DNA from: Catellatospora sichuanensis
GTDB taxonomy: Bacteria; Actinomycetota; Actinomycetes; Mycobacteriales; Micromonosporaceae
NCBI RefSeq assembly: GCF_007483665.1
Contig: NZ_VIQO01000040.1
Coordinates: forward strand, 62,001 to 126,000
Direction: 5' to 3'
Length of the DNA stretch: 64,000 nt
Part shown: positions 3,864 through 16,936 of the stretch, piece after piece
Numbering within the stretch: the first letter of the stretch is position 1
How the letters are laid out: the number at the start of each line of letters is the position of its first letter
Translations under genes and position numbers: made by a program
The notes under the pieces: model-generated
What the model was told of the DNA's origin: nothing
Database searches by the model: none
What the model saw: the letters and a program-made list of their open reading frames with translations, nothing else

Positions 3864-4045
3864 CCGAACCATGGTTGCGGCGCGTCGCCCGGCGCACGCT
3901 CATTCTGGGAGTGCGCGGACGCATCGCAAGTCCAGGCAGCATCCGACACCGGCGTGGCGGTCATGGCTCCGCGCCGGCTTCACCACCGCCAGGCGGCATC
4001 GGACCAGTCGGGACGGAAATGGGCCCTGGAATCGTCGCCCACTGA
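3860..4045 (+). pseudogene. Truncated gene coupled to padR
   Basis: An ATG overlapping the padR stop (ATGA) opens a 61-codon frame. Only the first 14 or so codons (MTEPWLRRVARRTL) look like a genuine N-terminus; after that the frame becomes Gly/Arg/Pro/Ser-rich and non-protein-like before stopping. PadR genes in this group are usually followed by a translationally coupled membrane protein, so I infer that the partner was lost by deletion and only its start remains. Function unknown. Confidence 0.4.
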
Positions 4046-4086
4046 GGCCTTCGCCTCATGCCGCGATTCACGACCGTAACTACGTT

Positions 4087-4106
4087 GAAAAGATCTCAAT
4101 CTTTTC
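4087..4106. promoter_or_regulatory. 8-bp inverted repeat upstream of DUF1996 gene
   Basis: GAAAAGAT (4087-4094) and ATCTTTTC (4099-4106) form a perfect AT-rich inverted repeat with a 4-nt centre, 22 nt before the start codon and just before the GTAGGAGGG Shine-Dalgarno. It could be an operator or a 5'-UTR hairpin. An AT-rich palindrome is conspicuous in this GC-rich background. Confidence 0.35.
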
Positions 4107-4128
4107 GCGGATCGTAGGAGGGTCACGC

Positions 4129-5523
4129 ATGACAAGGGACTGGATCAGACGGCGGGCACGGGTGGTCTCGGTCGGCGCCGGTTGTGCGGGGATGGTGCTG
4201 GCCGCGGCCGTCGTCGCGCTGACGCCGTCGGCGGGTGCCGCCGCTGAGCTGGTGGTGCAGGCCGAGGCGTACTCGGCTCAGCTCGGTGGCGTCGTCGAGC
4301 CGACCGTCGACACTGGCGGCGGCTCTGACGTCGGCTACCTGTCCCGGGGGGACTGGCTGCGCTACGACGGTGTGGACCTGGGCGCCTCGGGCACGATGAC
4401 CATCTCGGTACGCGTCGCCTCCGCCGTCGGCGGTACGGGGACCGTCCAGCTGCGTACGGGATCGGTGACCGGGCCCGTCCTGGCACAGTTCGCCATCACG
4501 GCGACCGGCGGCTGGCAGGCGTGGGTCACGCAGACGGTGAACGTCACCAGCCACCCGGCCGGTGTCCAGTCGGTGTACGCCGTCATGGCCAACGCCGGCA
4601 GCGGCGCGGACTTCGTCAACCTCAACTGGCTGTCGTTCAACTCCGGCGGCACGGGCCCGGCGACCGGCTGGGTGAACGTCGACCCGGTGAAATGGAACGC
4701 GCAGCTGGCCGCCTTCCGGGCGATGACGATGGCACCGGCACCGGCCAACGCCGTGCGCGTGCCGGAGTTCAACGCCACATGCACCTACAGCCACTCCTTC
4801 AAGGACGACCCCATCGTGTTCCCCGGGCTGCCGGGTGCCTCCCACATGCACAGCTTCTTCGGCAACCGCAGCACCAACGCGAACTCCACCCTGGACAGCC
4901 TGCGGGCTAACACCGCCACGACGTGCACGCCGGCCCCTGCGGACCTGTCGGCGTACTGGGTTCCGACCCTGTATCACCGCGGTGCCGTCGTGGAGCCGAA
5001 GGGGGTCGTGGTGTATTACGGCTCGCGGCTGGCGGACCCGAGCCAGACGGTTCCGTTCCCGCTGGGCTTCGAGATGATCGCGGGCAGCGCGGGCCGTCAG
5101 GTGCCGACGCCTGCGGGATCGGTGAACCAGTTCTACTGCGTGGGCGGTACGACGGGCGGTGAGATCGGCCGCAGCGCCGACGGCAACTGGCCGATCTGCT
5201 CGCCCGGCGGGACGTTGATGTTCCAGCTCGTCTTCCCCGACTGCTGGGACGGCGTGCACCTGGACAGCCCCGACCACAAGTCGCACGTGGCGTTCACCCC
5301 GAACGGGACATGCCCGAGCGCGTTTCCGGTGGCGATCCCGTCGGTGTCGTTCGTCATCGCGTATCCCGCCGTCGGCAGCGCGGACGGGTTCACGCTGGCG
5401 TCGGGGATGGCCTCGTCCATGCACGGGGACTTCGTCAACGTCTGGGACAACGATGCGCAAGGTCACCGGGTGAAGAACTGCATCGTCCAGTCGGCCAAGT
5501 GCAACAGCGCCGGGCAGTTCTGA
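4129..5523 (+). CDS. Secreted carbohydrate-binding (CBM6/35-like) DUF1996 protein
   Basis: 464 aa exported protein. ATG 4129 is preceded by AGGAGGG and opens a signal peptide with a twin-arginine-like start (IRRRARVVSV) and a hydrophobic core ending near AGAAAE. Residues about 38-170 form a jelly-roll carbohydrate-binding module of the CBM6/35 type (VVQAEAYSAQLGG, GDWLRYDGVDLG, GADFVNLNWLSF). Residues about 185-464 match DUF1996: NATCTYSHSFKDDPIVFPG, GASHMHSFFGN, SAYWVPTLYHRG and CWDGVHLDSPDHKSHVAF. Conserved His/Asp/Cys residues in DUF1996 suggest a metal- or substrate-binding site, but its reaction is not established to my knowledge. DUF1996 with carbohydrate-binding modules is common in fungi and actinobacteria that attack polysaccharide. 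Monocistronic. Confidence 0.85.
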   Translation: MTRDWIRRRARVVSVGAGCAGMVLAAAVVALTPSAGAAAELVVQAEAYSAQLGGVVEPTVDTGGGSDVGYLSRGDWLRYDGVDLGASGTMTISVRVASAVGGTGTVQLRTGSVTGPVLAQFAITATGGWQAWVTQTVNVTSHPAGVQSVYAVMANAGSGADFVNLNWLSFNSGGTGPATGWVNVDPVKWNAQLAAFRAMTMAPAPANAVRVPEFNATCTYSHSFKDDPIVFPGLPGASHMHSFFGNRSTNANSTLDSLRANTATTCTPAPADLSAYWVPTLYHRGAVVEPKGVVVYYGSRLADPSQTVPFPLGFEMIAGSAGRQVPTPAGSVNQFYCVGGTTGGEIGRSADGNWPICSPGGTLMFQLVFPDCWDGVHLDSPDHKSHVAFTPNGTCPSAFPVAIPSVSFVIAYPAVGSADGFTLASGMASSMHGDFVNVWDNDAQGHRVKNCIVQSAKCNSAGQF

Positions 5524-6266: not shown

Positions 6267-6926
6267 TTATCTCTGCCCGGTCCACACGACGACCGCCTCG
6301 GTGCGGCTGGCTACGCCCAGCTTGGCGAAGATGTGCTGCAGGTGGTTCTTGACGGTCTTCTCGGTCAGCATCAGCCGGTGCGCGATGGCGGCGTTCGACA
6401 ATCCCTGTGCGAGCTGTGCCAGCACCTCCTGTTCCCGTCGGGTCAGACCGAAGCGGGATCTCGCGAGCCGCCGCCGTTCGGCGAGTTCGCGGTGGGCGCG
6501 TTCGTGTTCGGCGTGTTCGCGTACGGCTGCGGCGGCGACTGCGGCCGCGACAGGGGAGAGCCAGCCGTGCCCGGCTGCCACGGCGAGCACCGCGCGATGC
6601 AGTTCCGGCGGATCGAAGGCCCCGTGGACGAGGTAGCCGCGGGCGCCGCCGCGGATCATCCCGGCGATGAGTTGCGGGTCGGCGTCGCTGGTGAGCACCA
6701 GCACCCGCGTATAGGCGATCATCTCGCCGAGCACCGAGAGTCCGTCCGCCACCGGCATGCGGTGGTCGAGCAGGGTCACCATGGGCCGGTACCGGCGGGC
6801 CAGCGCGACGGCTTCGCGTCCGTCGGCGGCCTGGGCCGACACGCTTACCTCCGGGCATAGCTGCAGGTAGCCGTTGAGGGCGGCCCGGACGATCGGGTTG
6901 TCGTCCACGACCATCACCGAGATCAT
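6267..6926 (-). CDS. NarL/LuxR-family response regulator
   Basis: 219 aa. An N-terminal receiver domain (MVVDDNPIVRAAL; phospho-acceptor Asp in TLLDHRMPVADG, about residue 57; LTSDAD for the switch Thr/Ser; the usual Lys position is replaced in GYLVHGAF) precedes a LuxR-type helix-turn-helix (LTRREQEVLAQLAQGLSN, then LMLTEKTVKNHLQHIFAKL). The position of the conserved beta-5 lysine is occupied by His, which may alter phosphorylation control. The gene overlaps the kinase stop by ATGA and is followed immediately by the anchored surface protein. Confidence 0.9.
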   Translation of the reverse strand: MISVMVVDDNPIVRAALNGYLQLCPEVSVSAQAADGREAVALARRYRPMVTLLDHRMPVADGLSVLGEMIAYTRVLVLTSDADPQLIAGMIRGGARGYLVHGAFDPPELHRAVLAVAAGHGWLSPVAAAVAAAAVREHAEHERAHRELAERRRLARSRFGLTRREQEVLAQLAQGLSNAAIAHRLMLTEKTVKNHLQHIFAKLGVASRTEAVVVWTGQR

Positions 6927-8119
6927 GGCAGCGTTCCGGCGTACGCGGCCGCTTTGAGCGGACTGTTCGCGGCGACGGTTTCGACGGTCGTTCCCGCGCC
7001 TGGCGCGGAGATCACGCGCAGGGTGCCGCGGACGGCGGCGGCCCGTTCTGCCATGCCGATCAGGCCGAAGCAGCCGCTCAGCTCCGCAGGTACGCGGAAC
7101 CCGGCGCCGTTGTCGGTGACGCGCAGCCGGACGCTTGCGCGGGTGTGCGCGAGTTCCACGGTCACGGAGCTCGCCCGAGCATGTCGGGCGATGTTCTCCA
7201 GTGACTCGTGCAGGATCTGGGCGAGCTCGTAGCGCAGGTCCAACGGGAGGTCGGCGGTCGCGACCGTCATGTGCACCGGGATGCCTTCACGTTCGGTCCA
7301 CCGGCGGCAGATACGGTCCACCGTCGTGGCGAACTCGTGGTCCGGGTTGTCGAGGCGAAGGCCCTCGAGGACCTCTTTCGCCTGCCGGACCGCCGCGGTG
7401 GCTCCGGCTGAAACCGTTGCGGCCAGTTGTTCGGCCAGGGCGGGCTGTCGTCGCAGGGAGGTCGGCAGCGCCAGTGCCGCGAACGAGACCCCGCGCAGCG
7501 TTTTGGTGACCGAGTCGTGCAGCTCGCGGGCGAGCCGGGCTCGTTCCGCGGCAGCCGCCGTACGCTGGGCCGATGCGACCAGCTTGACTGACAGGTCGAC
7601 GTGGGCGGCCAGTGCGGCGGTCGCGACGGCGGCGCCGACGGCGGTGAGCACGTTGATGATGGGGAAGGCCAGGACGAAGCCGGCCAGGCTCGGCGCGCCC
7701 GGCGTCGAGGCGAGCAGGTGGGCCGCGACCAGGTAGCCGAGTCCGGCGTAGCACGCGGCCGGCAGCAGTGCCCAGAAACCTACGAGTACGCCGGCCAGCG
7801 CGCTGGCCCCTGCGGCACTGCAGAAGAAGGCGACGTCGCCGTCGCCGACCCCGAGGACGACCATGACGATCGTGGCGTCGGCCGCCAGGATGGGCAGGGG
7901 ATGAGTGACCACGTGGGGATTGCGGGACAGCGTCACGAGAGCGACGACTGCCGTGAGGAGGACGAGTAGGAGCACGACGATCAGCGAAGCGGGCTGTGCT
8001 CGAAGGCGTAGGCCGCCGCCCGCGACGGCGAGGGTCGCAGCTGCCCGGCCGAGCAGCACTGCCCGCGCGACAGCGGCCCGCGCGACTACACGGTCGAGGT
8101 GTCCAGCGGTCGTTGTCAC
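6923..8119 (-). CDS. Sensor histidine kinase (HisKA_3 / NarX-like)
   Basis: 398 aa from GTG 8119. The N-terminal half has about four to five membrane helices with short loops and no large extracellular sensor domain. The dimerisation/phosphoacceptor region contains RARLARELHDSVTKTL (HisKA_3 motif), followed by a HATPase_c domain with the N box (ILHESLENIARHA), G1 (DNGAGF) and G2 (GLIGMAERA). It should phosphorylate the adjacent NarL-type regulator. A longer frame reaches 8236, but the first 39 residues are polar and non-conserved-looking, and GTG 8119 is preceded by AGGA at suitable spacing, so I prefer the shorter form. The sequence 8150-8180 upstream holds an imperfect dyad (ATCTTCGAG / CTCGAGGAT) that may be promoter-associated. 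Confidence 0.88.
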   Translation of the reverse strand: MTTTAGHLDRVVARAAVARAVLLGRAAATLAVAGGGLRLRAQPASLIVVLLLVLLTAVVALVTLSRNPHVVTHPLPILAADATIVMVVLGVGDGDVAFFCSAAGASALAGVLVGFWALLPAACYAGLGYLVAAHLLASTPGAPSLAGFVLAFPIINVLTAVGAAVATAALAAHVDLSVKLVASAQRTAAAAERARLARELHDSVTKTLRGVSFAALALPTSLRRQPALAEQLAATVSAGATAAVRQAKEVLEGLRLDNPDHEFATTVDRICRRWTEREGIPVHMTVATADLPLDLRYELAQILHESLENIARHARASSVTVELAHTRASVRLRVTDNGAGFRVPAELSGCFGLIGMAERAAAVRGTLRVISAPGAGTTVETVAANSPLKAAAYAGTLP

Positions 8120-8264
8120 GAGTCCTGCCCCGGGCGTGGGCGATACCTGACGATCTTCGAGGGAGCGCTCTCTCGAGGATCGGGCAAGTGATTGACGGTT
8201 GTCAAGGCATCCATCATTTCCGCAGGGCCGTGTCAATGGCGGGCAGGTAGTCCAGGCGCGAGAG

Positions 8265-9490: not shown

Positions 9491-10459
9491 ATGTCCTGGA
9501 TAGTGACCGGAGGCGCCGGATACATCGGCGCCCATGTCGTGCACGCCCTGCTCGCATCGGATCTCGAAGTCGTCGTCGTCGACGACCTGTCCACCGGCGA
9601 CGCCCGGCGGATACCCGCGCAGGTGGCGATCGAGCAGATCGACGTCTGCGATCTGGCCGCGATGGACACCGTCGTCGCCCGGCACCGGCCGGTGGGCGTC
9701 ATCCACCTGGCGGCGCACAAGGACGTGGCCGAATCGGTCCGCCAGCCGATGCGCTACTACCGCGACAACCTGGACGGGCTGCGTTCCGTACTCAGCGCCG
9801 TCGTCAACAACGGCGTCGGACATGTGCTCTTCTCCTCCAGCGCGGCCGTATACGGCACCCCGGACGGCGACACGCCGATCCCGGAGACCGCGCAGACCTC
9901 GCCCGACAACGCCTACGGGCGTACCAAACTCGTCGGCGAATGGCTGCTGCGCGACACGGCAGCAAGCCATGGGTTCCGGTGGGCGGCGCTGCGGTACTTC
10001 AACGTGGCCGGCGCCGCCGAACCAGGGCTGCGCGACACCGGCCTGACCAACCTGCTGCCCCGGCTGCTGCTCGCGTCGCGGCGCGGCCTGCCCGCCACCG
10101 TGTACGGCGGCGACTACCCGACCCGCGACGGCAGCGCCGTCCGTGACTACGTACACGTCGGCGACGTCGCCGACGCCCACGTATCGGCTGCGCGCGCCCT
10201 GGTCGACGGCGTGCTCCACGCCGACGTGCTCAACGTCGGCCGGGGTGAGGGCACCACGGTACTGGAGATGATCGACGCCGTCGGCCGGGCCACCGGGCGC
10301 GAGCTGTCCTACCTGGTCGAACCCCGCCGCACCGGCGACCCGGCGCACGTAGTGGCCGGCGTCGACGAGATCTCAGCCCGGCTGGGCTGGACGGCCCGCT
10401 ACGGGCTCGACGACATCGTCGTCTCGGCAGCCGCCGACAGCACCCTGGCAACCGTATGA
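9491..10459 (+). CDS. galE: UDP-glucose/UDP-GlcNAc 4-epimerase (GalE/Uge3-like), first gene of the GAG-like operon
   Basis: 322 aa extended short-chain dehydrogenase. The NAD-binding motif TGGAGYIG (residues 6-13) opens the protein, VVVDDLSTGD follows, and the catalytic triad is Ser117 (FSSSAAVYG), Tyr142 and Lys146 (AYGRTKLVGE). LRYFNVAGA and the C-terminal RRTGDPAHVVA complete the GalE pattern. Length is normal for GalE. It interconverts UDP-Glc/UDP-Gal or UDP-GlcNAc/UDP-GalNAc; the sugar specificity cannot be settled by eye, but its place as first gene of a PelF/Agd3/Sph3/GH114 operon suggests that it supplies UDP-GalNAc, as Uge3 does in fungi and PelX in Pel systems. Its stop overlaps the next frame by ATGA. 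The upstream region (9380-9490) is AT-richer and likely holds the operon promoter. Confidence 0.9.
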   Translation: MSWIVTGGAGYIGAHVVHALLASDLEVVVVDDLSTGDARRIPAQVAIEQIDVCDLAAMDTVVARHRPVGVIHLAAHKDVAESVRQPMRYYRDNLDGLRSVLSAVVNNGVGHVLFSSSAAVYGTPDGDTPIPETAQTSPDNAYGRTKLVGEWLLRDTAASHGFRWAALRYFNVAGAAEPGLRDTGLTNLLPRLLLASRRGLPATVYGGDYPTRDGSAVRDYVHVGDVADAHVSAARALVDGVLHADVLNVGRGEGTTVLEMIDAVGRATGRELSYLVEPRRTGDPAHVVAGVDEISARLGWTARYGLDDIVVSAAADSTLATV

Positions 10460-10478
10460 CCAGGTCCGTGACTCAACC

Positions 10479-10485
10479 AGAGGAG
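10479..10485 (+). promoter_or_regulatory. Shine-Dalgarno deciding a TTG start
   Basis: AGAGGAG lies 6 nt before TTG 10492. This supports TTG 10492 as the start of the deacetylase rather than ATG 10456, which overlaps the galE stop but lacks its own ribosome-binding site. Confidence 0.6.
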
Positions 10486-10491
10486 ACAACC

Positions 10492-12522
10492 TTGTTCGGC
10501 AAGCACACATCGCCGCCGGGCGGGCGCAAAGCGCGCCTGCTCGCGGCCTGCACCGTCGCGTGCCTGGCGGTGACGGCGCTGGCCGGCTCCCCGGCGCAGG
10601 CGTACGCCACCGGCGTCCGCGTGGACCTGCGGGTGCTGGTCTTCGACGACGGCTCGGCCGGTGTCGGGGTCGTGACCGCGCAGATGGACCGCGAGGGCGT
10701 GCCCTACGACACGATCGACCTGAACCAGCCGGCCCGGCCCGCGCTGACCGCCGCCGCCCTGTCGGACCGGGTCGCCGGCCAGCCGCGCGCCAAATACAAC
10801 GGCGTCGTCATGCCCAACGAGCACGCGCTGCCACCTGCCGAACTCGCGGTCCTCGCGGCATTCGAGCAGACGTTCGGAGTCCGGCAGCTCGACGCGTACA
10901 CGGCACCGACCGCGGCCGTCGGCCTCACCACCACCTGGAGCGGGCTGCTCGACGGCGGCGCGCTGGCCGTCACGCCCGCCGGGCAGGCAGCCGGGTTCGG
11001 TTACCTCACCGGTGCCCTGGCGGTCGACGACGCCGACCCGGCCGTGGCGGAAAGCTACGGCTACCTGGCCGCACCCGCCGCCGGGGCGAACTACACCCCC
11101 CTGGTCAACGGCACCAGCCCCGCATCCGGGGCGATCATCGGCGTGTACCGCACCGGCACCCGCGAGGAGCTGGTGGTGACACTGGCGATGAACGAGTACC
11201 AGAGCGTCGCCCAGCAGCTCGGCCACGGCCTGGTGACCTGGCTGACCCAGGGCGTGCACCTGGGCCACTGGCGCAACTGGTTCAGCGTGCACATCGACGA
11301 CGTCCTGCTGCCCGACGCCCGCTGGGACGCCGAGCGCAACTGCACCGTCGGCGACGACTGCCCGCCGATCCCGGACCCGCTGGCCGACATCCGGATGACC
11401 GCCGCCGACGTCACCGCGCTGGTGTCCTGGCAGAACACCCAGGGCATCAAGGCCGACCTGGCGTTCAACGCCGAGGGTGCCGTCGAGGCGGGTCCGACCG
11501 ACGCGCTGACTGCGAGGCTGGTCGCCGACCGGGCCCAGTTCCGCTGGCTCAACCACACCTACTCGCACCCCTACCTGGGCTGCGTGCAGGACTTCTCCAC
11601 CACGCCATGGCACTGCGCCACCGACCCGGTCACCGGCGCCGTGCTCTATGCCGCCCAGGCCGACATCCGAGCCCAGATCACCGACAACCTGACCTGGGCG
11701 CAGGGCAGGGGCATCAGCGTCAACCGGGCCGAGCTGGTCACCGGCGAGCACTCGGGCCTCAAGACCCTGCCGCAGATGGCGGTCGACAACCCTCACCTCG
11801 CCCCGGCGCTGGGCCAGGCAGGTGTCACGATCATCGCCTCCGACGCGTCCCGTGAGCCGGTCACGCGCCGCGTCGGCGCGGCCCGTACGGTGCCCCGCCA
11901 CCCGATGAACATCTTCTACAACGTCGCCACCCGGGCCGACGAGGTCGACGAGTACAACTGGATCTACACCAGCCGTGCCGACGGCGGCAGCGGCATCTGC
12001 GAGAACAACCCGTCCTCGACCTGTATCGCCCCGCTGTCCACCGTGACCGGCTTCGACGACTACATCGTGCCGGTCGAGGCCCGGATCGCCTACGGCCACG
12101 TGATCTCGGCCGACCCGCGCCCGCACTACGTGCACCAGTCGAACATCACCGCAGACCGCATCCTGTACCCGGTCCTCGACGCGGTGCTCGACCGGTACCG
12201 CAGCACCTACACCGCCGCCACACCCATCGTGAATCCGCGGATGAGCGAGGTCGCGGCGCTGCAGACCCAGCAGGCCGCATGGCGGGCCGCCGTCGCGGCC
12301 CGCACCGTCGAGGCCTACCTCAGCAACGGCCGGATCACCGTCATCAACCGCGGTGCCGCCCTCGCCGTGCCGATCACCGTACCGGCGAACACGCAGACCA
12401 TCATGCTGTCGCTGCTCGGCCTCGAACTGCGCGGCGGCCCGTACGGCTCGGTCTACGGCCCGGAGCGCTCCGGGTGGACGACCCTGGCCGCCAACGGCCA
12501 GCAACTGCTGCGCACGGCATAG
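10492..12522 (+). CDS. Secreted Agd3-like (CE18) polysaccharide deacetylase
   Basis: 676 aa from TTG 10492 (12 residues more if ATG 10456 is used). A signal peptide (RKARLLAACTVACLAVTALA, cleavage near SPAQA) directs export. The central (beta/alpha) NodB-like domain has metal-ligand motifs WFSVHIDDVLLPD (Asp269/Asp270) and WLNHTYSHPYLGC (His355, His359), the arrangement seen in the fungal GAG deacetylase Agd3 rather than in classic NodB enzymes. The preceding 250 residues (DLRVLVFDDG, YNGVVMPNEHALP) form a second domain, and the C-terminus is a small beta domain, as in Agd3. The expected reaction is removal of acetyl groups from GalNAc in an extracellular alpha-1,4-linked polymer, giving a cationic adhesive product. 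It is coupled to galE upstream and lies 10 nt before the glycosyltransferase. Confidence 0.8.
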   Translation: MFGKHTSPPGGRKARLLAACTVACLAVTALAGSPAQAYATGVRVDLRVLVFDDGSAGVGVVTAQMDREGVPYDTIDLNQPARPALTAAALSDRVAGQPRAKYNGVVMPNEHALPPAELAVLAAFEQTFGVRQLDAYTAPTAAVGLTTTWSGLLDGGALAVTPAGQAAGFGYLTGALAVDDADPAVAESYGYLAAPAAGANYTPLVNGTSPASGAIIGVYRTGTREELVVTLAMNEYQSVAQQLGHGLVTWLTQGVHLGHWRNWFSVHIDDVLLPDARWDAERNCTVGDDCPPIPDPLADIRMTAADVTALVSWQNTQGIKADLAFNAEGAVEAGPTDALTARLVADRAQFRWLNHTYSHPYLGCVQDFSTTPWHCATDPVTGAVLYAAQADIRAQITDNLTWAQGRGISVNRAELVTGEHSGLKTLPQMAVDNPHLAPALGQAGVTIIASDASREPVTRRVGAARTVPRHPMNIFYNVATRADEVDEYNWIYTSRADGGSGICENNPSSTCIAPLSTVTGFDDYIVPVEARIAYGHVISADPRPHYVHQSNITADRILYPVLDAVLDRYRSTYTAATPIVNPRMSEVAALQTQQAAWRAAVAARTVEAYLSNGRITVINRGAALAVPITVPANTQTIMLSLLGLELRGGPYGSVYGPERSGWTTLAANGQQLLRTA

Positions 12523-12532
12523 GGGACAGTCG

Positions 12533-14014
12533 ATGCGCGTCGCGTTGGTCAACGAGGGCACCTACCCGTACGTGCTCGGCGGCGTCAGCACCTGGTGCGA
12601 TCACCTCGTCCGCGGGCTGACCGACGTCACCTGGCACCTGGTCACCATCGTCGGCCAGCCGACGATGACACCAGCGCTGGCCCTGCCCGACAACGTGGCG
12701 TCGCTGTCGGCCGTTGCCATCTGGGACCGGCCCCGGGCTCCGCGCCGCCGCTCCATCAGGGCGGCGGCGCGGATGTGCACCGGCATGCTCGGCGACACAC
12801 CCGCCCACCTCGACCTGTTCCGATCCGGGCTACGCGAACTGGCCCTGGCCCAACCCGGGCACGCACGGCCAGGATGCGCCCACTGCGCCCGGGCACCAGC
12901 CGCCTGCCCCCGCCACGGGCTCGCCGGCCGCCACCCGCTCCACGGACTTCCCCTGGCCGACCTGCTACTCGACGCCTGGACACAGGCCGCACGCACCACC
13001 GGCCGGCCACTGCCCCGGCTCACGCTACGCGACGCCGACGAAGCCGCAGCCCTCATCGAACACGCAGTACGCCCCCTCGCGGCCTTCCTGCCACCGGTCG
13101 ACGTATGCCACGCCAACGCCAACGGCCTGTCGTCACTGGTGGCGCTGGCCGCGAAATGGCGCGACGGCGTCCCGTTCCTGATGACCGAACACGGCGTCTA
13201 CCTACGCGAACGCTACCTGTCGGCAGGCACCCACCAGCCCGGGGTGAAAGTCGCGGTGCTGCGGTTCCACCGGGCACTGGCCCGACTCGCCTACACCGAA
13301 GCCGACCTGATCGCCCCCGTCAGCGCCTTCAACCAGCGCTGGGAGGAACGCCACGGCGCCGACCCCGCCCGCATCCACGTCATCCCCAACGGCGTCGACC
13401 CGCACCGCTTCCCGCCGCTCACCGCCGAACCCGACATCCCCACCATCTCCTGGGTCGGCCGCATCGACCCGCTCAAAGACCTGGAGACGCTGATCAGCGC
13501 CCTCGCCGTGGTACGACAGCAAGTACCCGACGCCCGCCTGCACCTCGCCGGACCCGTACCCGCCGGCAACGAGGACTACGCCCGCACCTGCCACGACCTC
13601 GCCGCCGGACTCGGCCTGGCCGACGCGGTGACCTTCGCCGGCCCCGTCGCCAGCAGCCGCGACGCGTTCCAAGCCGGACACGTGGCAGCACTGTCGAGCA
13701 TCTCCGAAGGCATGCCCTACACCATCGTCGAAGCGATGATGTGCCAACGGCCCACCGTCAGCACCGACGTCGGCGGCGTCGCCGAAATGGTCGGCGACGC
13801 CGGCATCGTGGTCCCGCCACGCGACCCGATCGCCTTCGGCACCGCCTGCGCGACCCTGCTACGCGACACCGGGCAGCGCCGCGACCTCGGCCGCCGCGGC
13901 CACGACCGGGCACTGCGACTCTTCACCCTGCGCCGATGCCTGGACTCCTACCGCCGGCAGTACCAGCTGCTGGGCGGCAACCGGCCACCACACGACGGCA
14001 GCGCCCCCGCATGA
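12533..14014 (+). CDS. PelF-like GT4 glycosyltransferase
   Basis: 493 aa, cytosolic. The N-terminus carries the PelF/DUF3492 hallmark EGTYPYVLGGVSTW (residues 8-21), and the middle includes TEHGVYLRERY. The C-terminal GT4 Rossmann domain has VIPNGVDPHRF, SWVGRIDPLKD and the retaining EX7E motif at Glu392/Glu400 (SEGMPYTIVEAM). PelF polymerises UDP-activated N-acetylhexosamine during Pel synthesis, and the fungal Gt4C carries a related GT4 domain. The length matches PelF (about 500 aa). Residues about 80-170 contain a Cys/Pro/Arg-rich insert (ARPGCAHCARAPAACPR) that could bind metal and is unusual. The start ATG 12533 follows a GGGGACAG Shine-Dalgarno-like sequence, and the stop overlaps the membrane-protein start by ATGA. 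Confidence 0.88.
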   Translation: MRVALVNEGTYPYVLGGVSTWCDHLVRGLTDVTWHLVTIVGQPTMTPALALPDNVASLSAVAIWDRPRAPRRRSIRAAARMCTGMLGDTPAHLDLFRSGLRELALAQPGHARPGCAHCARAPAACPRHGLAGRHPLHGLPLADLLLDAWTQAARTTGRPLPRLTLRDADEAAALIEHAVRPLAAFLPPVDVCHANANGLSSLVALAAKWRDGVPFLMTEHGVYLRERYLSAGTHQPGVKVAVLRFHRALARLAYTEADLIAPVSAFNQRWEERHGADPARIHVIPNGVDPHRFPPLTAEPDIPTISWVGRIDPLKDLETLISALAVVRQQVPDARLHLAGPVPAGNEDYARTCHDLAAGLGLADAVTFAGPVASSRDAFQAGHVAALSSISEGMPYTIVEAMMCQRPTVSTDVGGVAEMVGDAGIVVPPRDPIAFGTACATLLRDTGQRRDLGRRGHDRALRLFTLRRCLDSYRRQYQLLGGNRPPHDGSAPA

Positions 14015-15366
14015 GCATCGACAGCGCCGCACCGCCGACCATCGCACCCATCGCGATCCCGTCCGCCGCCGACCTCGCCCAGCAGGTACACGCCCGGCTC
14101 GGCTGGGCCGCCGACACCGGCGAGGTCGCCGCAGTCCTCGAATCAACCGGAATCAACGACCGGGCCGCCGGAACCTACGGACACCCGTCGGTCTTCACCC
14201 TCGCCCGCCAGATCCTGACCACACCCGCACAACCCCACCCCGCACCCGAACCGGCACCCCAGACACCACGCATCCCGATCATCGACGCACTCGTCCGCGC
14301 CGGACTCTTCCTCACCCCGACGGTCATCGTCACCGGCAGCGCCCCACTGTTCGGCACCCTGCCCTGGTACGCCACCACCGGCCCTCTCGTAGCCGGCTGG
14401 GCCACCGCCCAAGCCCTGGCATTCCTCGGCTACCAAGCAGTCAACGAAGCCGGCGTACGCTGCGCCGCCCGACGCCTCGCCCTCGGATTCGCGACACTGG
14501 CACTGCTCTGGGCCGCCCTGCTCGCCGCCTCCGGCGCCTCAACCACGTCCTACCTCGTCAGCGCCGCCCAGATAATGCTGTTCGCGGCCAACACCGCCGC
14601 ACTGGTCACCGGCACCGAACGACGCACCCTCATCGCCGCAGCCTCCTGCTGGCTCGCCACCGCCGCCCTGCTCGCCGGCACCGGACCACCCGCCGTCGCC
14701 GCCCTGCTCGCCGGCCTGCTCGCCATGGTCACCGTCGCCTACCTACCGGCATGGGGACGCGGCACCCAGCCGTGGCGCCCGGACCTGAACCGCTACGCCG
14801 TCGCCGCCCGGCACGGCACCGTCGGCGCCGGGCAGGCCCTGCTGTTCATCCTCGTAGCCCTGCAGCAGACGGGCACCATCGCGCCGGCCGCGACCTCGGC
14901 ACCACTGCTGGTCGGCATACCCCTGACGGAACTGATGCTGCTGCGCCACCAGCGGCGCGTCGCCGACGGCCGGGTCCGGCTCACCGACCGCACCGCCTTC
15001 CGCCGCCACCTGGCCCGCACCGGCACCACGACCGGACTCGCCCTGGCCGTACCGCCGCTGGCCGCCGCGGCACTCCTGCTGTCCACACCCACCCCCGACG
15101 GCTGGGCGGTCACCGCATCCACCCTGCTCGCCGGAATCAACGCGATCTGCCTGGTCCTCGTCGCGCACCGCCGCCCCGCCTCCGCGCTGGCCCTGATCTG
15201 GCTCAGCGCGGCCCTGATCGCCCTGAGCATCACCGCCCTGCGGATCCTGCTGCCGAACGCACCCGACGCAGCCACCGCCAGCAGCGCCGTAATCCTCCTA
15301 TGCCTCTACCCGCCCGCCCTGGCCGAAGCCGTCAGGGCACTGAAAGACCCCTGGAGCTACCGATGA
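14011..15366 (+). CDS. Polytopic membrane protein of the GAG-like operon (putative polymer export partner)
   Basis: 451 aa. The N-terminal 90 residues are soluble and contain a motif recurring in actinobacterial polysaccharide membrane proteins (VAAVLESTGINDRAAGTYG, then SVFTLARQIL). About 12 hydrophobic helices follow from residue 93 to 440, with a basic loop near 315-335. No known transporter signature can be read, and there is no clear PelG identity. Coupling by ATGA on both sides to the glycosyltransferase and the spherulin-4 gene suggests that it forms the export channel or flippase for the polymer, the role played by PelG in Pel or by the membrane part of fungal Gt4C. Function is inferred from context only. 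Confidence 0.7.
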   Translation: MSIDSAAPPTIAPIAIPSAADLAQQVHARLGWAADTGEVAAVLESTGINDRAAGTYGHPSVFTLARQILTTPAQPHPAPEPAPQTPRIPIIDALVRAGLFLTPTVIVTGSAPLFGTLPWYATTGPLVAGWATAQALAFLGYQAVNEAGVRCAARRLALGFATLALLWAALLAASGASTTSYLVSAAQIMLFAANTAALVTGTERRTLIAAASCWLATAALLAGTGPPAVAALLAGLLAMVTVAYLPAWGRGTQPWRPDLNRYAVAARHGTVGAGQALLFILVALQQTGTIAPAATSAPLLVGIPLTELMLLRHQRRVADGRVRLTDRTAFRRHLARTGTTTGLALAVPPLAAAALLLSTPTPDGWAVTASTLLAGINAICLVLVAHRRPASALALIWLSAALIALSITALRILLPNAPDAATASSAVILLCLYPPALAEAVRALKDPWSYR

Positions 15367-15995
15367 CCACCCTGCTCCCGCTCTACACCCACCCGCTGGA
15401 AGACCCCGCCGCCTGGCAGGCGGTAGCATCCGCCGGCCCGACCGTCACCACGATCATCAACGTCCACAACGGACCCGGCAGAGCCGCCGACACCGTCTAC
15501 GACCAGGCCACCACGCTGCTGCGCGCCGCCGGAGCACCCATGCTCGGCTACGTCGACCTCGACTACGGCCACCGCGCCGACGCCGACATCGAAGACGACC
15601 TCGCCGCCTGGCACCGGTATCCCATCGACGGCGTCTTCTTCGACCAGGTACCGACCGCCGACGCCGCGCTCGCCGGGACCGCCCGGATGACCCGCCTCGC
15701 CCGTGGCCTGGTCGTGCTGAACCCGGGCACCCGCCCCGACCCGGCCTACGCAGCCCTGGCCGACCTCGTCTGCACGTACGAGGGGCCCTGGCCGGACTAC
15801 CGGCAGCAGCCCGACACACCGGACCTGCCCAACGCGGCGCACCTCGTCTACGGGGTGCCCACCGCCGAACTGGCCCACGCCCGTGCCGTGCTGGCCACCC
15901 GCACCGGTGGTGCCGGGCTCGTCACCGACGGCACCGCCCCGCTGCCGTACCGGGGCGTCCCGTCGTGGCTGGTCCCGGCCGGGATGCCCCGATGA
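15363..15995 (+). CDS. Spherulin-4 / Sph3-like glycoside hydrolase (GH135 type)
   Basis: 210 aa TIM-barrel protein. It starts directly with the first barrel strand LLPLYTHP (residues 4-11), followed by TIINVHNGPG (INxxxGPG motif), MLGYVDLDYG (YVxxxYG motif, about 60-70) and the acidic strand YPIDGVFFDQV (residues 86-96, Asp94). These are the signature motifs of spherulation-specific family 4. Fungal Sph3 (GH135) is an alpha-1,4-GalNAc endo-hydrolase required for galactosaminogalactan synthesis. No signal peptide or membrane anchor is present in this start choice, so the enzyme appears cytosolic or depends on partners for localisation, which differs from the membrane-anchored fungal protein. 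ATGA overlaps with both neighbours leave no room for a longer N-terminus. Confidence 0.85.
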   Translation: MTTLLPLYTHPLEDPAAWQAVASAGPTVTTIINVHNGPGRAADTVYDQATTLLRAAGAPMLGYVDLDYGHRADADIEDDLAAWHRYPIDGVFFDQVPTADAALAGTARMTRLARGLVVLNPGTRPDPAYAALADLVCTYEGPWPDYRQQPDTPDLPNAAHLVYGVPTAELAHARAVLATRTGGAGLVTDGTAPLPYRGVPSWLVPAGMPR

Positions 15996-16936
15996 CCCGC
16001 CGCACCGCCGCGATCAGCGCGGCCGGCGTCGCCGTTGCGTTGGCCCTCACCTGGCTCGCCGTCACCGCGATCCCCGACGGCACCCGGCCCGCCGCCGCCA
16101 CTGGTGCCGGATCGCCGGACGCGCCCGCCCTCACCGGCCGGCCGGACGGCACCGCCTCGGAACCGCCTGCCGCGACAGGCACCGCAACACCCGCGCCGGC
16201 CGCGCTCACCAGCGCACCCGCGGCACCGCACGAGCGCTGGCAGCCCCGGGTCGGTCAGACATGGCAGTGGCAGCTGTCCGGCGACCTCGACCTCACCGTC
16301 GACGCCGACGTCTACAACCTGGACGCCTTCACCGCCACCGCCGAGCAGGTGACGACCCTGCACCGGGCCGGACGGCACGTGATCTGCTACGTCAACGTCG
16401 GCGCATACGAAGACTTCCGACCCGACCAGGCGGCCTTTCCCGCCGAGATCCTCGGCCGGCCCCTCGACGGCTGGCCCGGCGAGCGGTGGCTCGACATCCG
16501 CCGCTGGGACCTGCTCGAACCCCTGCTGGCCGAGCGGCTGGCCCGGTGCCGGCAGAAAGGCTTCGACGGGGTCGAGCCCGACAACGTCGACGCCTACGCC
16601 AACGACAGCGGATTCCCGCTCACCGCAGGCGACCAGCTGCAGTTCAACCGGCGCGTAGCGGACCTCGCCCACAACGCGGGCCTGGCCGTCGGACTGAAGA
16701 ACGACGTCGAGCAGGCGGCCGCCCTGGTCGGTGTCATGGACTTCGCCGTCAACGAGGAGTGCGCCAGGTACCGCGAGTGCGACACGCTGGCCGTGTTCAC
16801 CGATGCGGGCAAGCCCGTCTTCCACGCCGAGTACGACCTGCCCGCAGGTTCGTTCTGCGCCCAGACGAGCCCGCTGCGCTTGTCCTCCATCCACAAGCGC
16901 CTCAACCTGGACGCCTATCGCGTCCCCTGCCCCTGA
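15992..16936 (+). CDS. GH114 endo-alpha-1,4-polygalactosaminidase (Ega3-like), membrane-anchored or secreted
   Basis: 314 aa. An N-terminal hydrophobic helix (about residues 6-26) followed by a Pro/Ala/Thr-rich spacer (30-80) suggests a membrane anchor or uncleaved signal. The barrel starts at WQWQLSGDLDLTVDADVYN and contains HVICYVNVGAYED (131-141), FDGVEPDNVDAY (191-202, with the conserved acidic Glu195/Asp197), AVGLKND and NEECARYREC. These are GH114 motifs. GH114 Ega3 and the TM1410-like family cut alpha-1,4-linked galactosamine chains, so this enzyme should trim the deacetylated polymer outside the cell. It is the last gene of the operon. A short GGGCCG/CGGCCC stem (16979-16992) downstream may end transcription. 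Confidence 0.87.
   Translation: MTRRTAAISAAGVAVALALTWLAVTAIPDGTRPAAATGAGSPDAPALTGRPDGTASEPPAATGTATPAPAALTSAPAAPHERWQPRVGQTWQWQLSGDLDLTVDADVYNLDAFTATAEQVTTLHRAGRHVICYVNVGAYEDFRPDQAAFPAEILGRPLDGWPGERWLDIRRWDLLEPLLAERLARCRQKGFDGVEPDNVDAYANDSGFPLTAGDQLQFNRRVADLAHNAGLAVGLKNDVEQAAALVGVMDFAVNEECARYRECDTLAVFTDAGKPVFHAEYDLPAGSFCAQTSPLRLSSIHKRLNLDAYRVPCP

Follow-up and report, generated by a model that had tools for sequence, protein, structure and literature searches.

A conserved six-gene operon of Catellatospora sichuanensis with predicted functions in a Pel-like and galactosaminogalactan-like polysaccharide pathway

Gene content of the operon

We analyzed a 64,000-nucleotide stretch of the Catellatospora sichuanensis genome (contig NZ_VIQO01000040.1, positions 62,001 to 126,000; hereafter, the window), which carries an operon whose products match enzymes of the galactosaminogalactan (GAG) cluster of Aspergillus and of bacterial Pel systems. 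A preliminary description had placed six neighboring plus-strand genes at positions 9491–16936, and the open reading frame coordinates bear this out: the junctions measure, in gene order, −4, +10, −4, −4, and −4 nucleotides, that is, four ATGA overlaps and one 10-nucleotide gap. The genes are as follows.

9491–10459, plus strand: galE, UDP-sugar 4-epimerase (TIGR01179; YxxxK and GxxGxxG seen)
10456–12522, plus strand: agd3-like gene, predicted secreted CE18 polysaccharide de-N-acetylase (PDB 6nwz match, profile, motifs CM1–CM4)
12533–14014, plus strand: pelF, GT4 glycosyltransferase (NF038011, PF11997)
14011–15366, plus strand: gene 4, membrane protein of 12 helices preceded by a cytosolic helical domain at the N terminus (AlphaFold2 and Foldseek)
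15363–15995, plus strand: sph3, Spherulin4/GH135 TIM-barrel protein without a signal peptide (PF12138, 5c5g alignment)
15992–16936, plus strand: gh114, predicted exported or membrane-anchored endo-alpha-1,4-galactosaminidase (PF03537, 6ojb)

Hidden Markov models recovered the families earlier named for PelF (DUF3492), Spherulin4, and GH114, and Agd3 was recovered through phmmer and a profile leading to 6nwz. Where curated Pfam or NCBIfam cut-offs exist, GalE, PelF, Spherulin4, and GH114 passed them; the agd3-like product and gene 4 had no match in either library. PelF scored 188.9 bits against NF038011 (cut-off, 100) and matched PF11997/DUF3492 with an E-value of 1.6e-41. No other gene in the assembly contains PF11997, and PelF is a probable cytosolic polymerase of UDP-N-acetylgalactosamine (UDP-GalNAc). 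GalE scored 309.1 bits against TIGR01179 (cut-off, 262.3), and two further GalE-like genes, at 41–42% identity, lie elsewhere in the same genome. At the column of the substrate-gate residue, which is Tyr in Escherichia coli and Cys in human GalE, the window GalE has Val, and the eight operon GalEs checked have Val or Ile. These residues may faintly hint at UDP-GalNAc as the substrate, and GalE probably supplies this nucleotide sugar.

The agd3-like product matched Aspergillus Agd3 (6nwz) in phmmer with an E-value of 1.5e-5, and a profile of 14 bacterial homologs found 6nwz at 2.6e-35, spanning the N-terminal and catalytic parts. All four Agd3 motifs (CM1–CM4) are matched, by D281, D282, H367, H371, R481, and H560; R481 is nearly invariant among the 14 homologs and the other five are invariant. 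The passages on these motifs in PMC7229062 give the roles of the Agd3 residues as base, metal ligands, arginine, and acid. By a hydropathy test, a hydrophobic export segment was detected in 43 of 80 Agd3 proteins. GH114 matched PF03537 (E-value, 3e-81) and the Ega3 structure 6ojb (3.5e-58), bears an N-terminal hydrophobic segment, and has D197 and E255 aligned with Asp189 and Glu247 of Ega3 (numbering from the Ega3 passages of PMC12054363).

Conservation, distribution, and mobility

With the Agd3 alignment as query, a scan of genome contigs confirmed 409 relatives; the 80 best of these, all actinobacterial, were kept, a set that leaves out distant relatives. Gene counts use the 66 of these 80 loci with at least 5500 nucleotides downstream: pelF occurred in 64, gene 4 in 64, sph3 in 62, gh114 in 55, and all four in 53, and two loci (L112 and L122) had none of them. 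The order agd3–pelF–gene 4–sph3–gh114, complete in 53 loci, is therefore not a chance arrangement; the six-gene observation is confirmed as real and well conserved. A GalE gene lies directly upstream of agd3 in 8 of 79 loci (Catellatospora, Dactylosporangium, and one Virgisporangium), and does not in L047, L051, and L056. In one actinobacterial locus (L035, 7937–10200), agd3 is fragmented over several reading frames; pelF, gene 4, and a divergent gh114 lie next to it. Of the five core genes, automatic annotation labels two as hypothetical proteins.

Any Agd3 match was found in 14 of 396 genomes sampled across the phylum. Within the window's family, 63 of 250 genomes had Agd3, 21 of them at 43% identity or higher, and homologs of about 30% identity form a second, wider group; within the genus, Agd3 was present in three of the 11 listed genomes and absent in eight. 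The operon is therefore an accessory element with a patchy distribution. Sixteen of the 250 family genomes carry gene 4 at 42% identity or higher, and in every one of them a coordinate comparison showed it to lie a few kilobases from an Agd3 (identity at least 56%) that shares its contig and strand. Weaker gene 4 matches were found in 60 further family genomes.

In Kocuria rosea, plasmid NZ_CP126484.1, typed as mobilizable, carries the complete agd3–pelF–gene 4–sph3–gh114 series (L169, 6678–15746) flanked by two inverted copies of one transposase (WP_284563886.1), and this unit is composite-transposon-like. In Streptomyces californicus, the operon lies on linear plasmids. The operon thus moves within bacteria. 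The window operon gave no sign of foreign DNA in its G+C content (70–73% in 2-kb steps). In S. californicus (L171, 14141–16821) and on a Deinococcus ficus plasmid (L170, 4954–7658), three sugar genes follow gene 4, encoding a short-chain dehydrogenase/reductase, a sugar phosphate nucleotidyltransferase, and an NAD(P)-dependent oxidoreductase.

Gene 4, a candidate exporter

An AlphaFold2 model of gene 4, built with 24 orthologs, reached a predicted local distance difference test score (pLDDT) of 87.4 and a predicted template modeling score (pTM) of 0.78. At the N terminus the model has a helical domain of about 70 residues, which is cytosolic and conserved, and about 12 long helices follow it. 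When it was compared with the PDB by Foldseek, the first 28 rows were of the WzxE, MATE, and MurJ kinds at a probability of about 1.00, with a best E-value of 3.0e-3, no row reaching 0.001, and template modeling scores (TM-scores) of 0.30–0.49. A Streptomyces protein was also modeled, from an alignment that excluded the window's branch (pLDDT, 79.2; pTM, 0.73), and the first 24 Foldseek rows for this second model were again of the MATE/Wzx/MurJ kinds (best E-value, 1.8e-2); the two alignments have members in common, and the second model is a repeat and not independent proof. Pfam and NCBIfam scans of the 24 orthologs gave scattered single matches, all at E-values of 0.096 or weaker, and a viral fold library gave no match to the model (best E-value, 0.41). 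The gene 4 family extends to plasmids of Deinococcus (101 bits) and Kocuria (56 bits).

In Pel systems the comparable protein is PelG. PelG (PF16933) had no match in this assembly, and the Thermotoga maritima control was positive. Two genomes of another family carry pelF, canonical pelG, and agd3 consecutively, so that pelG fills the slot between pelF and agd3. The preliminary description had called the gene 4 product a polytopic membrane protein; its 12 helices agree with this, and the models refine it to a probable MOP-type (MATE/Wzx/MurJ) polymer exporter in the place of PelG, without detectable PelG homology.

Identification of gene 4 as PelG itself was set aside as lacking sequence support, given the hhalign probability of 0.1; the fold class agrees, and the idea was kept in a weaker form. 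This form, a strongly diverged PelG and not a separate MOP lineage, is the less probable reading but a serious contender: gene 4 occupies the same slot with the same general fold class, and gene 4 of one locus (L037) ranked first among the non-PelG proteins that the PelG model matched, though at an E-value of 0.073. It is opposed by the hhalign result against PelG profiles, which was the same with both sets (24 versus 3 rows and 37 versus 8 rows), and by the conserved N-terminal cytosolic domain of gene 4.

Sph3 of the operon

Sph3 matched PF12138 (Spherulin4) with an E-value of 1.3e-28 and the Sph3 structure 5c5g with 3.5e-7. In the 5c5g alignment, D94 and E140 correspond to Sph3 D166 and E222, and Q95 stands in place of E167. 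The relevant passage of PMC10485009 assigns a putative catalytic role to Asp166, Glu167, and Glu222, and that of PMC12054363 gives the pair as Asp196/Glu222. Gln follows the nucleophile in 62 of 64 operon Sph3 proteins (56 by pattern and six by reading the sequences; the others have D-R, in L117, or a broken start, in L102), and an E222-like motif was recognized in 60 of the 64.

The window Sph3 starts directly at its first barrel strand. We searched the 75 in-frame residues ahead of the domain for a hydrophobic 15-mer, and none of the 64 operon Sph3 proteins had such an export segment (the result for L102, with its broken start, is unreliable), whereas the same test was positive in 54 of 55 GH114 proteins. 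In several loci, the sph3 frame was closed only 6–9 codons upstream. Because no export segment occurred in 64 of 64, the operon Sph3 is probably cytosolic, unlike fungal Sph3, which passages of PMC12054363 describe as membrane-bound and attacking the acetylated polymer as it leaves the synthase. In the cytosol, Sph3 would meet only the fully acetylated chain.

It is conceivable, if unlikely, that the operon Sph3 is not a hydrolase and instead serves as a binding or regulatory subunit of a cytosolic synthase, replacing PelD/PelE. The missing export segment and the replacement of E167 by Gln would suit such a subunit, as would the finding that PelD (PF16963) had no match in the genome, but the control genomes were equally without a match. 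The window protein nevertheless keeps the equivalents of D166 and E222 (nucleophile and acid/base), and most of the operon proteins have the E222-like motif, which speaks for a hydrolase.

The same genome encodes further GH135 proteins. A paralog on contig C15 has a signal-like segment and the motif FFDE. Near the end of contig C14, a second sph3–gh114 pair lies on the minus strand (L041, 17249–18495); its Sph3 lacks a signal and has FFDQ, and its GH114 matches only profile positions 1–145 of 231.

Comparison with known systems

The operon passages of Bamford et al. (2020; PMC7229062) describe bacterial Agd3 operons, some with "most, or all" GAG-cluster homologs, that encode GH114, a cytoplasmic glycosyltransferase, and a membrane protein with multiple spans, joined in some Actinobacteria by spherulin-4. 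The window shares with these operons Agd3 with CM1–CM4, the cytoplasmic glycosyltransferase, the membrane protein, GH114, and spherulin-4; it is a member of the kind described in 2020, and the combination itself is no discovery. The operon section of that paper does not mention an epimerase, the fold of the membrane protein, or the location of Sph3. Within open-licence PMC articles, we did not find in print the replacement of PelG by gene 4, a signal-less Sph3 with Gln, or the transposase-flanked operon of Kocuria.

The preliminary description saw all five functions of the fungal cluster in this operon. Judged by passages of PMC4817252 and PMC12054363 on the Aspergillus GAG cluster (uge3, gtb3, agd3, sph3, ega3), an epimerase, CE18, GH135, GH114, and a glycosyltransferase are indeed common to both, but the synthase is split: it is one transmembrane glycosyltransferase (Gtb3) in Aspergillus, whereas the window encodes PelF and a membrane protein in separate genes. 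Aspergillus Sph3 is moreover membrane-bound and extracellular and has Glu167, whereas the window Sph3 lacks an export segment and has Gln at this position.

For Gram-positive Pel, the operon passages of PMC7112168 give the order pelDEA(DA)FG, often with a GalE ortholog and a hydrolase nearby. PelF, the nearby GalE and hydrolase, and a deacetylase are shared with the window, which differs in having no PelG match and a deacetylase of family CE18, and in which GH114 and GH135 stand where Gram-positive Pel has the GH166-type PelA hydrolase. Tentatively, these differences could mark a third architecture beside Pel and fungal GAG, in which PelF would work with a MOP exporter of its own lineage and without PelD or PelG, an acetyl-specific GH135 in the cytosol would police unexported chains, a deacetyl-specific GH114 would act outside, and the whole would spread among actinobacteria on plasmids and transposon-like units; we regard this composite as doubtful.

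Relationship to fungal GH114

A horizontal link between the fungal cluster and this operon had also been suggested, and GH114 is the sole family that was tested with fungal rows. Ega3 is 51% identical to an actinobacterial GH114 (L130) and 47% identical to that of the window, and agd3, pelF, gene 4, and sph3 are all absent from the 31 kb around L130. In GH114 trees, which took in two fungal rows, both PDB chains, Ega3 and the Fusarium enzyme grouped with L130 and one Pseudoalteromonas row, outside the operon rows. The branch parting this group from the operon rows had support of 99/99 with 58 rows and 100/98 with 46 rows (12 dropped); the trees carried long-branch warnings, chiefly on both fungal rows. 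An approximately unbiased test spoke against placing Ega3 with the operon rows (p = 0.028), but the test is not a clean one, because the operon rows constrained together do not form a single clade when the tree is unconstrained.

Direct transfer between the operon clade and fungi is therefore not supported for GH114, as the trees, with their long branches, place fungal Ega3 outside that clade. The intermixing of fungal and bacterial GH114s fits transfer in general, but not with the operon clade as the source. Bacterial origin by transfer was first suggested in PMC4817252, and PMC7229062, in its passages on Agd3 operons, proposes horizontal transfer and favors transfer from bacteria. The distribution of the operon bears on this question of the fungal cluster's origin, raised in 2016 and 2020.

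Proposed pathway

From the protein families, motifs, conserved gene order, modeled fold of gene 4, and absence of an export segment from Sph3, we infer the identity of the polymer, the substrates, the transport step, and the role of Sph3. The operon quite likely makes, exports, deacetylates, and trims a Pel/GAG-like alpha-1,4-linked polymer of N-acetylgalactosamine and galactosamine (GalNAc/GalN). The partly deacetylated GalNAc polymer proposed earlier is supported as a prediction, as are the PelF-type glycosyltransferase and the CE18 deacetylase with all four Agd3 motifs. In the predicted pathway, GalE would provide UDP-GalNAc, which PelF would polymerize at the inner face of the membrane, and gene 4, standing in for PelG, would move the chain outward. 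Secreted Agd3 would then strip acetyl groups, making the chain cationic and adhesive, and GH114, outside, would cleave deacetylated stretches. Cytosolic Sph3 would meet the chain in the fully acetylated form that fungal Sph3 prefers, and would probably trim, recycle, or sense unexported chain.

Several points weigh against this pathway. Within the range examined, gh114 was not seen in 11 of the 66 loci and sph3 was not seen in four; the Foldseek E-values of gene 4 all exceed 0.001 and its TM-scores all stay below 0.5 in both models; and Sph3 does not keep Glu167, a putative catalytic residue of its fungal counterpart. The export test, positive in just 43 of 80 Agd3 proteins, overlooks some signal peptides. 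Moreover, the extra sugar-nucleotide genes of some related operons suggest that the monosaccharide may vary, and for the window's organism the polymer is a prediction.

The product could also be a galactosamine-containing polymer of the hyphal cell wall, remodeled by the hydrolases, and not a loose exopolysaccharide. In the passage concerned, PMC7229062 cites Streptomyces cell walls as containing galactosamine polysaccharides at low levels; the GH114 protein is secreted or anchored, and Gram-positive bacteria need no outer-membrane export parts. We consider a wall polymer distinctly improbable, as PelF and Agd3 are linked to adhesive exopolysaccharides where studied and no wall-attachment gene was recognized among the six. 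That the enzymes are catabolic and attack fungal GAG or the Pel of neighbors is very improbable, for although three of the six genes belong to GAG-active families and the soil is shared with molds (as noted in PMC7229062 where this is discussed), the same transcript encodes a PelF polymerase, GalE, and an exporter-like protein, Sph3 lacks an export segment, and no sugar importer is among the six genes.

Operons of this kind are common among Streptomyces and allied soil bacteria. Should their product be a cationic GalNAc/GalN adhesive, it would account for the adhesion of hyphae in many actinomycetes, and the operons would provide harmless, genetically tractable models of a polymer important to the biofilms of both Aspergillus and Pseudomonas. 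Specialist attention is best directed to the exporter and to the localization of Sph3: an unrecognized exporter, if true, would mean that a PelF polymerase is not tied to a single transport partner, and a GH135 in the cytosol, if true, would alter the view of hydrolase action in polymer operons.

Transcription signals and flanking genes

A promoter and terminator scan of the operon found no promoter-like site and a single terminator-like site (minus strand, 10819–10803), fewer than in shuffled sequences. Upstream of the operon, positions 4036–5523 of the window encode a secreted-looking protein with CBM6 and DUF1996 domains. Adjoining the operon, positions 6267–8236 on the minus strand encode a HisKA_3 histidine kinase and LuxR-type response regulator pair.

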